Source: Caryophanales bacterium UBA6768 (GTDB lineage: Bacteria > Bacillota > Bacilli > Bacillales_D > Amphibacillaceae). From it: a stretch of DNA of 7,673 nt. Location of the stretch: assembly GCA_002453315.1 (NCBI GenBank), contig DKGO01000209.1, forward strand, positions 1 to 7,673. The letters are read 5' to 3'. Both the position numbers and the translations under genes were made by a program. Below, piece by piece: positions 1-7,673 of the stretch (position 1 is the stretch's first letter; every line of letters begins with the position of its first letter). Under the pieces are notes generated by a model that ran no database searches, had not been told where the DNA came from, and was given only the letters and a program-made list of their open reading frames with translations.

Positions 1-1973
<1,973 letters not shown>

Positions 1974-2233
1974 GAATGCCCTTCTCATCAGTTTTTTCAT
2001 ATAGAAGGGAACTCAAAAGCTGTTTGAATGCCCTTCTCATCAGATTTTTCATATAGAAGGGCACTCGGGAGAGGTTTGAATGCCCTTCTCATCAGATTTT
2101 CCATGTAGAAGGGCACTCGGGAGATGTTTGAATGCCCTTCTTATCAGTTTTTCAATGTAGAAGGGCACTCGGGAGCGCTTTGAATGCCCTTCTCATCAGT
2201 TTTTCTATATAGAAGGGCACTCGGGAGATGTTT
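1974..2233. repeat. Tandem array of five 52-bp dyad repeats
   Basis: Units begin at 1974, 2026, 2078, 2130 and 2182, an exact 52-bp period with no indels. Each unit is a 12-nt left arm GAATGCCCTTCT, a 17-nt T-rich loop, a 12-nt right arm AGAAGGGCACTC and an 11-nt spacer of the type GGGAGATGTTT. The left arm is identical in all five units. The right arm is identical in four and reads AGAAGGGAACTC in the first. The arms pair over 12 positions with one fixed irregularity: A opposite C on the plus strand, which becomes a G-U wobble on the minus strand. Loops and spacers vary more than the arms. No T-tract follows the stems, so these are not ordinary terminators. The array lies between two minus-strand genes and contains no reading frame of note. 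Confidence 0.95.
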
Positions 2234-2522: not shown

Positions 2523-3365
2523 TTATATTTGTTTTAAAGCACCGTTTGCCTCTGGGATGTCATCTAAGTCAAGGGCATTCATTTTACAGAAGTATTCCAA
2601 GAAATTTTCAGCTACTTTGATTTCCTCTTGGTCCGTTTTTAATGCTATGATATCTTTTAAAATTTGGGCAGCCCAAACATTATCAAAATAACGATATTTT
2701 CCAGAATTCCATGTCATCCGATGCGGATAATTCCTGTTGATATAATAGGACCAGAAAAGCATTTTTTCAGCTTCTTGTTCAGTTAGCTTAATTCTGAATT
2801 TCGTATGAGCAGGGACCATTCCATCACTACTAAGGATGTTGGTAAATGTCTCATGTACCATATAAAGACCGAGAATCCGTCTGTCTGTTTCTGGCTGATC
2901 CAAACCCCTTGCCGTCAAAAGCCCTACACTGTTCAGACTCAATCGGGCAGGTATATTAGGTTCCCCTTTACTTTTTCCACTTTGGATTTTCCCTGTAGAA
3001 ACTTTCCAATCAGAAAATACACTTTTTTGTTCTTCTTCATCTAGCCAGAAAACAATTTGTTGACTTTCATGAATTTTTTGATTTTTTATTTTTGCTCTTA
3101 GCTGTTGTTCTAGCATCTGCTGCCTTTTTTCTTCTTCTCGTTTCTTTTCCAGTTGTTCCTTTTCCATCTCTCTTTTAGAAATGATTTTCTTAAGGGATTT
3201 TGAAGTTTCCCGGTTCTGTAGTGTGATGAATTTTCCAAAAGCATCAGGGTAAATAAATTTTTTAATTCCATCATTGAATTTAACGGTAATAAAAGATTCG
3301 TCTTGATCCACGATATCCCCTTCACCAAATACTTTATGAGTTATTTCTTCATTAATTAAATTCAT
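2523..3365 (-). CDS. Uncharacterised protein: beta-rich N-module, coiled coil, conserved C-domain
   Basis: Predicted soluble protein of 280 residues with no signal peptide or membrane segment. Residues about 6-48 (HKVFGEGDIVDQDESFITVKF then KKFIYPDAFGKF) resemble the small SH3/Tudor-like barrel found at one end of several Firmicute proteins, with a GxGxIV turn and a closing FxYPDAF strand. Residues about 55-100 are a highly charged Lys/Glu helix, likely coiled coil. Residues about 104-280 form a second domain with FWLDEEE, SGKSKGEPNIPARL, LLTAR, DRRILGLYMV, MVPAHTKFRIKL and MTWNSGKYRYFDN. The last motifs look like a family-conserved binding surface, but I recognise no catalytic signature. The ATG is well supported: GAGGAG (3380-3375) lies 9 nt upstream. 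It is transcribed alone, divergently from ytxJ. Ligand and function are unknown; nucleic-acid binding is only a guess from the barrel. Confidence 0.9.
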   Translation of the reverse strand: MNLINEEITHKVFGEGDIVDQDESFITVKFNDGIKKFIYPDAFGKFITLQNRETSKSLKKIISKREMEKEQLEKKREEEKRQQMLEQQLRAKIKNQKIHESQQIVFWLDEEEQKSVFSDWKVSTGKIQSGKSKGEPNIPARLSLNSVGLLTARGLDQPETDRRILGLYMVHETFTNILSSDGMVPAHTKFRIKLTEQEAEKMLFWSYYINRNYPHRMTWNSGKYRYFDNVWAAQILKDIIALKTDQEEIKVAENFLEYFCKMNALDLDDIPEANGALKQI

Positions 3366-5150: not shown

Positions 5151-5186
5151 AGTAATCATGAGAATAATTTGGCGGTGTCTATTGTC

Positions 5187-7301
5187 ATGATAAATTGGAT
5201 GAAGCAATTTTTTAAAATAATAGTCTTTAGAATTAAAAAAACGACCGAACGTGATAGTAAAACGACAATCATAGCCATTCTGGCTGCCTTCCTAATTTCC
5301 ACTATCATTTCGATTATTACAGCAATTGGTGTCCCGACAGGGCCTACTTTAAAAAATAGGATATACGATATTTTAATTGCCACTGGTCTTAATTTAGTCG
5401 GATTTATGTTATTTGTGGTCATTTTTTCTATCATTCTATCACTTTTATTTATCCCGTTACCTAGATTGCTAGCCTCTGCTACTATTTACACTGGCATCCT
5501 ACATGGGATAGTTTTACATCAAGCCAAAAGCGGTATGAATTTCTCTATTTTCATCGGCGTGATGACAACCGTAGTTACCGTTTTACTTGGTGTAGCTGTC
5601 ATACTCTTTTTTAAAAATCGATTTGGCCGATGGGTTTTGACTTCACTTTTGGTCATCTCAACTGTCATGTTTGTCGCAGCAAATTTTCCCAATAAAAATG
5701 TTGTCGATGTCAGTAGTGAAAGCGAGGAACACCCGGCACATCTCGGTTCTTCTGATACATCCTTTTTCACCTATGGCAGTGGGACAGATTTACACCGTGA
5801 GGAATATGCTTCAAAAGTGGCGGAAATAACACCCTCAGTTGATGCCTCAAATTTCATCACACGTTGGAGTCATAAACGGGAGAAATTTTGGGGATTTAAC
5901 CAAGAAAATTTCCCTATCAATGGCCGTGTCTGGATGCCAGAAGGTGATGGAAGTTTCCCTATTATTTTAATGGTTCACGGTAACCATACGATGGAATATT
6001 TTTCTACAGATGGCTATGATTATTTAGGTGAGTCACTCGCATCTCACGGGTTTATTTTCATTTCTGTTGATGAAGATTATGTTAACTATTCTAATATTGT
6101 TGGACAACCTAACGATAATTATCAATTACGTACTTGGATTATGTTGCAACATCTCGTTCAATTAAAAGAATTAAACAGCAATTTAGAAAGCCAATTTTAT
6201 CAAAAAATTGATTTTAGCAATGTTGCATTTGCTGGTCATTCCCGTGGGGGTCAAGCGGCTGCAATGGCAGCAGATTATGAAAAGTTTTTCGATGATCCAA
6301 TTCTTTTAACACAATTAAAAGATATCCAAATAAAAGCAGTTGCCGCAATTTCACCTACTGAAAAACTTGTCGATAATAAACGTGCTACTTTGGATAATAT
6401 TGCTTATATGGTGTTGCATGGATCACATGATTCGGATGTTTATGATTTTCGTGGAAATCAACAATTTCACCGGACAAATCTTAATGAAAATTCAGATTTA
6501 TTGAAATTAGCTGTCTATATTGAAAAGGCAAACCATGTCCATTTCAATACGAGTTGGGGGACAAATGATTTAAGTTTTCCAAGGGGGATTTTTTTAGATC
6601 GTTCATCGATACTTAATAACTATGATCAACAGCTCATTGCAAAAGCATATTTTACGGCTTTTTTTAAAAAGGTGTTTGATGGTGATACAAGTTACGATTC
6701 AATGTTACAACATCCAAACAATCAGCAAAATGGATTACCTGACACACAAATTGTAAGCCAATATAAGCCAAGTACATATCGAACGATTGAAAAATTCAAT
6801 CGCTTTAGTGACCCGAGCGGTAATTTTAATGACTTTGAAGAAAGTGACGTTGTAACCCCTGAAGGACGAACGGGAAAAAACCATCCTAAAGATGTACTTG
6901 AATTGTCATGGGAGACTGAAGCAAGTTATTCTATTAAACTTTCTAGTGAGGATTTTAAAAATGCAAGAGATGAGGATGGTAACTATCTTATTCTCTCAAT
7001 GGCAAATATACTACCCGATTCACAACCTGACATCAACGTTACCTTGGAATCTGAACATCATCGCTTCATTGATGAAAATATTTCAATTGCCGATGTGATT
7101 GAAATTAACAATACCACATTCGGTTTATTTGATCAGTTTTTTCGTGATGGAAAATATGAGGAATCATGGGAGCCTATTTTCCAAACAATCGAAGTACCTA
7201 TCGAGCATCTACAGGACATGTCTAATGAGTCAGTTGTATTAACAATACATTTTCGAGGAAATGAAGGAAAAGTTTTGTTAGAGGAAATTGGGGTGTATTG
7301 A
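5187..7301 (+). CDS. Membrane-anchored alpha/beta hydrolase with C-terminal beta-sandwich domain
   Basis: Predicted protein of 704 residues. The N-terminal part (about 27-166) has five hydrophobic helices, near 27-48, 64-90, 95-112, 119-142 and 149-166, after a basic N-terminus, which would place the rest outside the membrane. Residues about 240-500 are an alpha/beta-hydrolase fold: oxyanion strand ILMVHGNH (260-267), nucleophile elbow GHSRGGQ with Ser352, acid loop HGSHDSDVYDF with Asp415 or Asp417, and ANHVHF with His450. It most resembles dienelactone-hydrolase or PAF-acetylhydrolase type enzymes; the substrate is unknown, possibly an ester or lipid at the cell surface. Residues about 555-704 form a beta-rich module ending SWEPIFQTIEVPIEHL...VLLEEIGVY, like jelly-roll domains appended to secreted hydrolases. 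The start is uncertain: TTG at 5169 and GTG at 5175 are in frame, and ATG at 5187 has a weak GGCGG 11 nt upstream. No partner gene is nearby, and no strong terminator follows. Confidence 0.92.
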   Translation: MINWMKQFFKIIVFRIKKTTERDSKTTIIAILAAFLISTIISIITAIGVPTGPTLKNRIYDILIATGLNLVGFMLFVVIFSIILSLLFIPLPRLLASATIYTGILHGIVLHQAKSGMNFSIFIGVMTTVVTVLLGVAVILFFKNRFGRWVLTSLLVISTVMFVAANFPNKNVVDVSSESEEHPAHLGSSDTSFFTYGSGTDLHREEYASKVAEITPSVDASNFITRWSHKREKFWGFNQENFPINGRVWMPEGDGSFPIILMVHGNHTMEYFSTDGYDYLGESLASHGFIFISVDEDYVNYSNIVGQPNDNYQLRTWIMLQHLVQLKELNSNLESQFYQKIDFSNVAFAGHSRGGQAAAMAADYEKFFDDPILLTQLKDIQIKAVAAISPTEKLVDNKRATLDNIAYMVLHGSHDSDVYDFRGNQQFHRTNLNENSDLLKLAVYIEKANHVHFNTSWGTNDLSFPRGIFLDRSSILNNYDQQLIAKAYFTAFFKKVFDGDTSYDSMLQHPNNQQNGLPDTQIVSQYKPSTYRTIEKFNRFSDPSGNFNDFEESDVVTPEGRTGKNHPKDVLELSWETEASYSIKLSSEDFKNARDEDGNYLILSMANILPDSQPDINVTLESEHHRFIDENISIADVIEINNTTFGLFDQFFRDGKYEESWEPIFQTIEVPIEHLQDMSNESVVLTIHFRGNEGKVLLEEIGVY

Positions 7302-7479
7302 TATTAGAATGATTTCCGAAAAACTTATCTTAACTTTTCTTTGAAACGATGAATTTCTTTTTAATTGTTCATATTAAGACTAATAAATAAGGGTGTTCAC
7401 CCAAATATTCTATGCCCTCCTAAATCATCTATCCATCAACTTTTTATTCCCCTAATAAAAGTGCACGATTACTAATATT
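7302..7479. other. Intergenic region after the hydrolase gene
   Basis: No gene was seen. GGGTG-TT-CACCC (7391-7402) is a perfect but loopless palindrome followed by AT-rich DNA, too small for a confident terminator. Positions 7461-7479 resemble the tail of the repeat unit that follows, offset by one base, so the array probably has a decayed unit here. Confidence 0.45.
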
Positions 7480-7673
7480 CCTTACCTGTTATAGTGAATT
7501 TGTATGGGGAAGGGCATGATTAACCTCTAATCCTTACCTTCTATTGCAATTTCGTATGGAGAAGGGCACGATTAACCTCTAATCCTTACCTTCTATTGCG
7601 ATTTTGTATGGAGAAGGGAACGATTAACCTCTATTCCTTACCTTCTATTGCGATTTCGTATGGAGAAGGGAAC
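7480..7673. repeat. Second tandem 52-bp repeat array, continues past right edge
   Basis: Units start at 7480, 7532, 7584 and 7636, an exact 52-bp period; the fourth is cut by the window edge after 38 nt. In the three better-preserved units CCTTCT and AGAAGG form a 6-bp dyad around a 17-nt loop. The following 11-nt spacer is TTAACCTCTAA, with one substitution before the last unit. The first unit is degenerate (CCTGTT for the arm). The loop keeps a GATTTT-like core also present in two loops of the array at 1974-2233. Period, loop length and AGAAGGG arm are the same as in that array, so the two appear to be diverged members of one repeat family. Confidence 0.93.

Follow-up and report, generated by a model that had tools for sequence, protein, structure and literature searches.

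Two intergenic tandem arrays with an exact 52-bp period and one dyad per unit were observed in the analysed window (the whole stretch of 7,673 nucleotides), and arrays of the same architecture, built from other letters, occur in further genomes of the Bacillales. The class to which we assign them is defined by the 52-bp period, a single dyad per unit, conservation of the arms and an intergenic place. The period is fixed over differing letters, the arms vary less than the rest of the unit, and the two arms of a unit do not covary within a genome. We tentatively read both window arrays, designated A and B, as Bacillales intergenic tandem satellites whose units serve as phased double-stranded sites for a dimeric protein. 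What we would call new is the class itself, i.e., a single period kept by many species while the letters change.

Two 52-bp arrays in the window

Array A had been described in the initial annotation as five 52-bp hairpin units in exact register and without indels, with conserved arms and variable loops and spacers. The five units are confirmed by TRF, and the register is borne out as well (period 52, 5.0 copies, 0% indels). In each unit, the arms GAATGCCCTTCT and AGAAGGGCACTC flank 17 bases. The left arm is identical in all five units, and the right arm in four of them, with a single change in unit 1 (AGAAGGGAACTC). Variable columns amount to 1 out of 24 in the arms versus 11 out of 28 in all other positions (Fisher P=0.003). 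Similar values were obtained for units 2 to 5 alone (0/24 versus 8/28, P=0.005), the spacers of which differ at just three positions. The proposed hairpin with matched arms holds for 11 of the 12 pairs, but in the third pair A is opposite C on the plus strand. For the consensus of array A the dyad was supported at P<=0.005, and the five units folded singly as RNA were somewhat better than shuffles (z -1.2 to -2.6). The earlier observation is hence confirmed as real, and its interpretation is partly supported.

Array B was missed by the initial annotation. Its letters are unlike those of array A, while the period and the core CCTTCT-N17-AGAAGG are alike. With up to two mismatches, this core has eight matches in the window compared to a shuffle mean of 0.26, and none of 200 shuffles reached eight. 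In the register set by CCTTCT, arrays A and B are identical at 26 out of 52 positions (shuffle P=0.009), and the consensus dyad of array B was obtained with P<=0.015. Both arrays thus have the exact 52-bp tandem unit, the dyad per unit and the intergenic location; conservation of the arms was observed in array A, for which it was assessed, since array B has too few units.

Coordinates of arrays, repeat parts and neighbouring genes in the window
Feature	Position	Strand	Remark
Array A	1972..2233	.	five 52-bp units and two bases (TRF)
Array A, units 1 to 5	1972-2023, 2024-2075, 2076-2127, 2128-2179, 2180-2231		
Array A, left arm, unit 1	1974..1985	+	GAATGCCCTTCT
Array A, left arm, units 2 to 5	2026-2037, 2078-2089, 2130-2141, 2182-2193		
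Array A, right arm, unit 1	2003..2014	+	AGAAGGGAACTC
Array A, right arm, units 2 to 5	2055-2066, 2107-2118, 2159-2170, 2211-2222		AGAAGGGCACTC
Array B	7479..7673	.	3.8 or more 52-bp units, extending past the window end (TRF)
Array B, cores	7537-7565, 7589-7617, 7641-7669		CCTTCT-N17-AGAAGG
FGGY carbohydrate kinase gene	2..1498	-	5' end 474 bp from array A
Gene of a 280-aa protein	2523..3365	-	3' end 290 bp from array A
Gene of a 710-aa hydrolase-like protein	5169..7301	+	3' end 178 bp upstream of array B

Array A is flanked by two minus-strand genes. The kinase gene presumably encodes the glycerol kinase GlpK, judged by its sequence. For the 280-aa protein on the other side no Pfam domain was found. 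In public records this protein is named malate synthase, a label that looks doubtful; its closest named relative belongs to Virgibacillus sp. W0181 (82% identity). A search of positions 1480-2560 for a GC-rich stem followed by a T run resulted in 0 intrinsic terminators, and one promoter-like match on the opposite strand was found in the gap containing array A, compared to 4.4 in shuffles. Rfam gave no match in the window, and neither Cas domains nor partition genes were found among the five window proteins. Due to the lack of terminator-like sites and of Cas domains, and to spacers that are homologous to one another instead of unrelated, both an intrinsic terminator and a CRISPR array were rejected, in agreement with the initial annotation.

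Relatives with the same arms

Scanning genome contigs for two consecutive CCTTCT-N17-AGAAGG units resulted in six stretches. Two of these belong to Cytobacillus purgationiresistens, the only other species in which CCTTCT arms were found at 52-bp spacing. Here, the array is situated at the ends of two contigs, with at least 14.2 and at least 6.7 copies of the 52-bp unit. As it occupies the start of L001 and the end of L004, the assembly probably breaks within the array. The Cytobacillus unit is identical to array B at 28 out of 52 positions (P=0.0007) and to array A at 23 out of 52 (P=0.17, not significant). The remaining four stretches, with steps (derived from match lengths) of 45 bp in Pseudomonadota, 54 bp in Flavobacterium, 51 bp in Rhizobiales and 42 bp in Rokuibacteriota, were set aside. 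The 51-bp stretch (L005) comprises just two units. In case of Flavobacterium (L003:6687-7180), the 54-bp tandem repeat has nine copies and, its period being a multiple of three, is probably coding.

A looser form of the arm pattern was present in 3 out of 193 genomes of the C. purgationiresistens family, two of them with a single match, and in 0 out of 29 genomes of the family that includes the closest relative as judged from the 280-aa gene. This makes the exact arms rare in the two families surveyed. Viral contigs contained no exact match to two CCTTCT units, and neither array A nor an array of genome G944 had a similar sequence among plasmids. A phage or plasmid origin was rejected, as the viral-contig and plasmid searches gave no matches.

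A constant period over changing letters

Among the 397 genomes of the order, the best match to the 280-aa neighbour of array A was found in G862, which matches Bacillus piscicola (70% identity). Near the 3' end of the ortholog, 111 bp away, G862 carries a 52-bp array whose arms are different, GGTCTT-N13-AAGACC; this shared place may be coincidental, as arrays abound in that part of G862. Arrays of the GGTCTT type account for 77 forward matches in G862 and 0 in the backward control, while the other 28 genomes of the family contributed one match, in G944 (matching Salicibibacter cibarius).

The period is markedly uniform. In 39 stretches of G862, self-similarity peaks at lag 52 (5732 positions) and lag 104 (5064), followed by lag 21 with 246 positions. 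In array-bearing genomes, 57 of the 92 TRF places with a period of 30-70 bp are at 52, none at 51 or 53, and six at 42, the next commonest period; this count covers stretches of G862, G944, G893, C. purgationiresistens and the window, includes two arrays twice because they are split at stretch borders, and takes in the window and the Cytobacillus loci owing to their arrays. In genomes without arrays (52 stretches, 1.03 Mb), period 52 is seen in 0 out of 36 places and period 51 in one. The difference between 57/92 and 0/36 corresponds to a Fisher P of about 3e-12, for groups formed after looking. Steps from unit to unit measure 52 bp in 274 out of 294 cases, 51 in 13, 53 in 6 and 50 in 1.

Sampling stretches of 17 further genomes revealed arrays in two, G944 and G893. 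An array of G893 and the window arrays are alike in having 9-base arms around 17 bases, in the consensus reading TTCCCGAAT-N17-ATTCGGGAA. Higher-order periods of 104, 156, 208 and 260 bp occur, and neighbouring arrays in one genome can differ in their letters. In stretches L074-L101 (G862:C1:17.8-378 kb), 52-bp arrays are very dense and show two letter families as well as higher-order periods of 104-260 bp. The initial annotation had considered that its reading would fall if the repeat were unique to this locus and the dyad absent elsewhere; the second window array and the 52-bp dyad arrays of relatives speak against this case.

The CAT-N9-ATG sub-type

The motif CAT-N9-ATG, flanked by variable outer arms, is found in many units of G862 and G944. 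In 50 out of the 397 genomes of the order, it occurs three times at steps of exactly 52 bp; matches number up to 249 per genome (e.g., G944 with 140, G878 with 66 and G778 with 41), and nine of the 50 genomes have a single match. The backward control matched in 4 out of 397 genomes, two of which are also array carriers. Viral contigs contained no exact match to the three-unit pattern. In G374, a 52-bp array with the arms ATAGGGTTGCAT and ATAGAGGGTACCAT is located at L189 (G374:C2:662717), and the backward control also matches twice in this genome.

The window arrays do not carry the CAT-N9-ATG core: at three mismatches there are four matches in the window, which is at chance level, and none of them lies in an array. 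By eye, units 3 and 4 of array A and the units of array B show ATG after a 10-base gap, a weak likeness. Membership of the window arrays in the class consequently rests on period, dyad, position and conservation.

Conservation along the unit and pairing of the arms

Conservation was evaluated for the 40 arrays that have four or more units; the other 17 of the 57 were left out. Mean identity was 0.79 in the columns 5-13 bp from the dyad centre, 0.61 in the loop and 0.59 in the spacer. The arms exceed the spacer in 36 out of 40 arrays, and the loop likewise in 36 out of 40. The dyad centre outranks the median of the 104 possible centres in 37 out of 40 arrays (P=2e-8, a value in which, as in the other P values across arrays, arrays of one genome are not independent). 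Individual consensuses have a dyad with P<0.05 in case of 34 out of 57 arrays, and across 32 array consensuses the complementarity of the outer arms is 0.608, compared to a mean of 0.459 and a maximum of 0.538 in 2000 permutations.

Within genomes, no covariation of the arms was observed. For units picked by CAT/ATG, and counting only columns outside CAT/ATG, standard pairs numbered 535 versus 579 expected in G862 (113 units), 208 versus 195 in G944 (36 units), and 52 versus 51 in G878 (9 units). G.T and A.C mispairs are about equally frequent (102/115, 25/23 and 3/1, respectively). Counts at paired positions are also near independence in the two families of G862, and at some arm positions A.A or G.A is the commonest state; since units entered this comparison on the strength of their arm letters (10/12 or 20/27 matches or more), its arm columns are biased towards agreement.

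In a selected RNA stem, compensation should be expected, and G.U should be favoured on one strand. If a dimer binds degenerate half-sites in double-stranded DNA, on the other hand, neither compensation nor a G.U bias should be seen. Since the arm mates do not covary within a genome, pairing as RNA or cruciform is not evidently selected, and from the letters we infer a pattern that fits double-stranded half-sites rather than RNA stems. The earlier suggestion that pairing between the arms matters is not supported, given complementarity at independence within genomes and G.T being no commoner than A.C.

Genomic context

Both neighbouring genes were situated within 700 bp for 47 out of 64 arrays. 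The flanking genes are co-directional in 30 of these cases, convergent in 13 and divergent in 4 (13 to 4, P=0.049), and array edges face gene 3' ends in 65 cases versus 5' ends in 44 (P=0.055). Among the best 25 of 179 families in the 85 out of 105 flanking proteins that were scanned, MFS_1 was the commonest with 5/85; as the neighbour families are the best 25 of 179, a rare partner family could be hidden. Arrays from six loci gave no Rfam match.

On C1 of G862, arrays cluster densely between 17.8 and 378 kb. By TRF, no arrays were detected in six sampled C1 stretches at 400-900 kb, and none in the stretch around dnaA, and the array-free stretches of this genome number seven in total (six on C1, one on C2). 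In G944, the CAT-N9-ATG positions among the matches listed (140 in all) range from 0.1 to 3.0 Mb. No common map position emerges from the clustering in G862 and the spread in G944. A link with the replication terminus was considered and rejected as well: in the stretches covered, the sole match to a dif-like site has seven mismatches and lies in another genome. One array of G944 (L115:3984-4107) directly follows an rRNA operon. Three matches to the Bacillaceae-1 RNA (RF01690) were found in the array-rich region of G862, at L074:3359-3426, L076:11283-11349 and L083:10435-10500.

Comparison with known repeat systems

The centromere-like site sopC (parS) of plasmid F is made up of 43-bp repeats, twelve in tandem; every repeat contains an inverted repeat of 16 bp to which a SopB/ParB dimer binds (PMC9178275). 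Common to sopC and the 52-bp arrays are tandem units of fixed length with one dyad each; dimer binding in the latter would be by analogy. Unlike sopC, the arrays have a unit of 52 instead of 43 bp, they occur many times per chromosome instead of once, their arm letters vary from array to array, and the five window proteins do not include a partition gene. In our reading, array A may work like a sopC-type row of dimer sites, and family membership is not claimed.

Tandem units are also found in alpha-satellite-like higher-order repeats and in MIRU/VNTR loci. With these, the arrays share tandem units and higher-order periods, but differ by a dyad per unit and by a single period across unrelated letters in many species. 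REP/BIME elements and REPINs with their RAYT resemble the arrays in being intergenic, palindromic and present in many copies per genome. We know of no fixed 52-bp head-to-tail step in REP units, whereas this step is constant in the arrays, of which 8 out of 50 carrier genomes lack Y1_Tnp. REP partners are reported to lie 20-100 bp apart (PMC3733652). The stem-loop repeat families Bhal-1, Bhal-2, Bant-1 and Bcr1 are, like the arrays, repeated palindromes of bacilli; they are set apart by their described sizes of 72-167 bp, and the word tandem is absent from the available part of the source text (PMC2267715). In the literature on such repeats no description of 52-bp dyad arrays was found, subscription journals being largely outside the search, and the available portions of papers on palindromic repeats do not mention 52-bp arrays.

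Interpretation of the arrays

Of the ideas in the initial annotation, an ordered protein-binding array best fits what was found later; the protein and its effect are what we infer. A dimeric protein could use the arms as half-sites in the double-stranded DNA. As 52 bp corresponds to about five turns of B-DNA, neighbouring dimers would be placed on one face of the helix and would touch each other. The resulting nucleoprotein fibre might act locally on the chromosome by compaction, as a supercoil or domain boundary, or by shielding gene ends. Unequal recombination would multiply and homogenise the units, and the letters of the half-sites may drift along with the preference of the protein. Against such a protein it can be held that no neighbour family recurs in more than 5/85 proteins, that just 34 out of 57 consensuses have a dyad with P<0.05 by themselves, and that one genome has two families with different half-site letters, which a protein of fixed preference would not tolerate, and against phasing that a period inherited from a single ancestral satellite would need no such function.

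The latter objection leads to the main rival, a non-functional or selfish satellite, in which an ancestral 52-bp repeat spread in the Bacillales with drifting letters and kept its period since unequal exchange works only in register. We consider this possible, though somewhat doubtful. Higher-order periods, the differing letters of adjacent arrays in one genome and the patchy presence (50/397 genomes and 2/17 of those sampled by stretches) are in agreement with it. Pure homogenisation, however, predicts even variation, and the excess of arm conservation over loop and spacer in 36 out of 40 arrays as well as in array A (P=0.003) counts against it. Alternatively, the units might function at gene ends as RNA hairpins (for mRNA protection, attenuation or as small RNAs) or form extruded cruciforms. 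All units of array A are foldable, and the preference for gene 3' ends and convergent gaps points in this direction. The lack of covariation, the absence of a G.T excess over A.C, the arm positions at which A.A or G.A is the commonest state, and the missing terminator-like sites and Rfam matches argue against it, and an exact step of 52 bp is not required for RNA stems. Because the mates do not covary within a genome, RNA hairpins or cruciforms as the selected feature were rejected as the leading idea and appear improbable to us.

REP/BIME-like elements moved by a Y1 transposase (RAYT) would account for intergenic, palindromic units in many copies. The Pfam family Y1_Tnp, which also takes in IS200-type enzymes, was detected in 42 out of 50 array-positive and 250 out of 347 array-negative genomes, but this difference is not significant (Fisher P=0.086). 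In 8 out of 50 carriers there is no match (E<=0.001), including G878 and G778 with their 66 and 41 array matches. As co-occurrence with Y1_Tnp does not support this origin and REP units are not known to have the fixed 52-bp head-to-tail step, we regard it as very improbable. Regular palindromic units, together with the location of array A 474 bp upstream of the kinase gene, could finally suggest a real or degenerate CRISPR array or a cis-regulatory operator of the glpK-like gene. With homologous spacers that differ at three positions in units 2-5, no Cas domain in the window proteins, a single promoter-like match on the other strand, and unrelated genes next to arrays elsewhere, this explanation is hardly credible.

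It is tempting to extend the reading as phased protein sites to chromosome-wide, period-locked nucleoprotein arrays in many Bacillales, in which a dedicated dimeric protein co-evolves with its half-sites and the chromosome is organised by them. We consider this extension rather unlikely. If true, letters would turn over while the five-turn spacing stays fixed, as in eukaryotic centromeric satellites and their proteins, and organisation would start at intergenic seeds numbering tens to hundreds.

Recognition of intergenic repeats in bacteria usually relies on their letters. Since the 52-bp class keeps period and dyad while the letters change, repeat catalogues based on sequence would miss it. 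Such arrays may also break assemblies, as exemplified by the C. purgationiresistens array at two contig ends. The protein-bound and the function-free readings are separable by experiment. If no protein reads the arrays, the class would be a clean model for the evolution of bacterial satellites. If a protein does, it would belong to an undescribed chromosome-organising system in roughly an eighth of the sampled order, a share given by the 50 out of 397 genomes with the CAT-N9-ATG sub-type alone.
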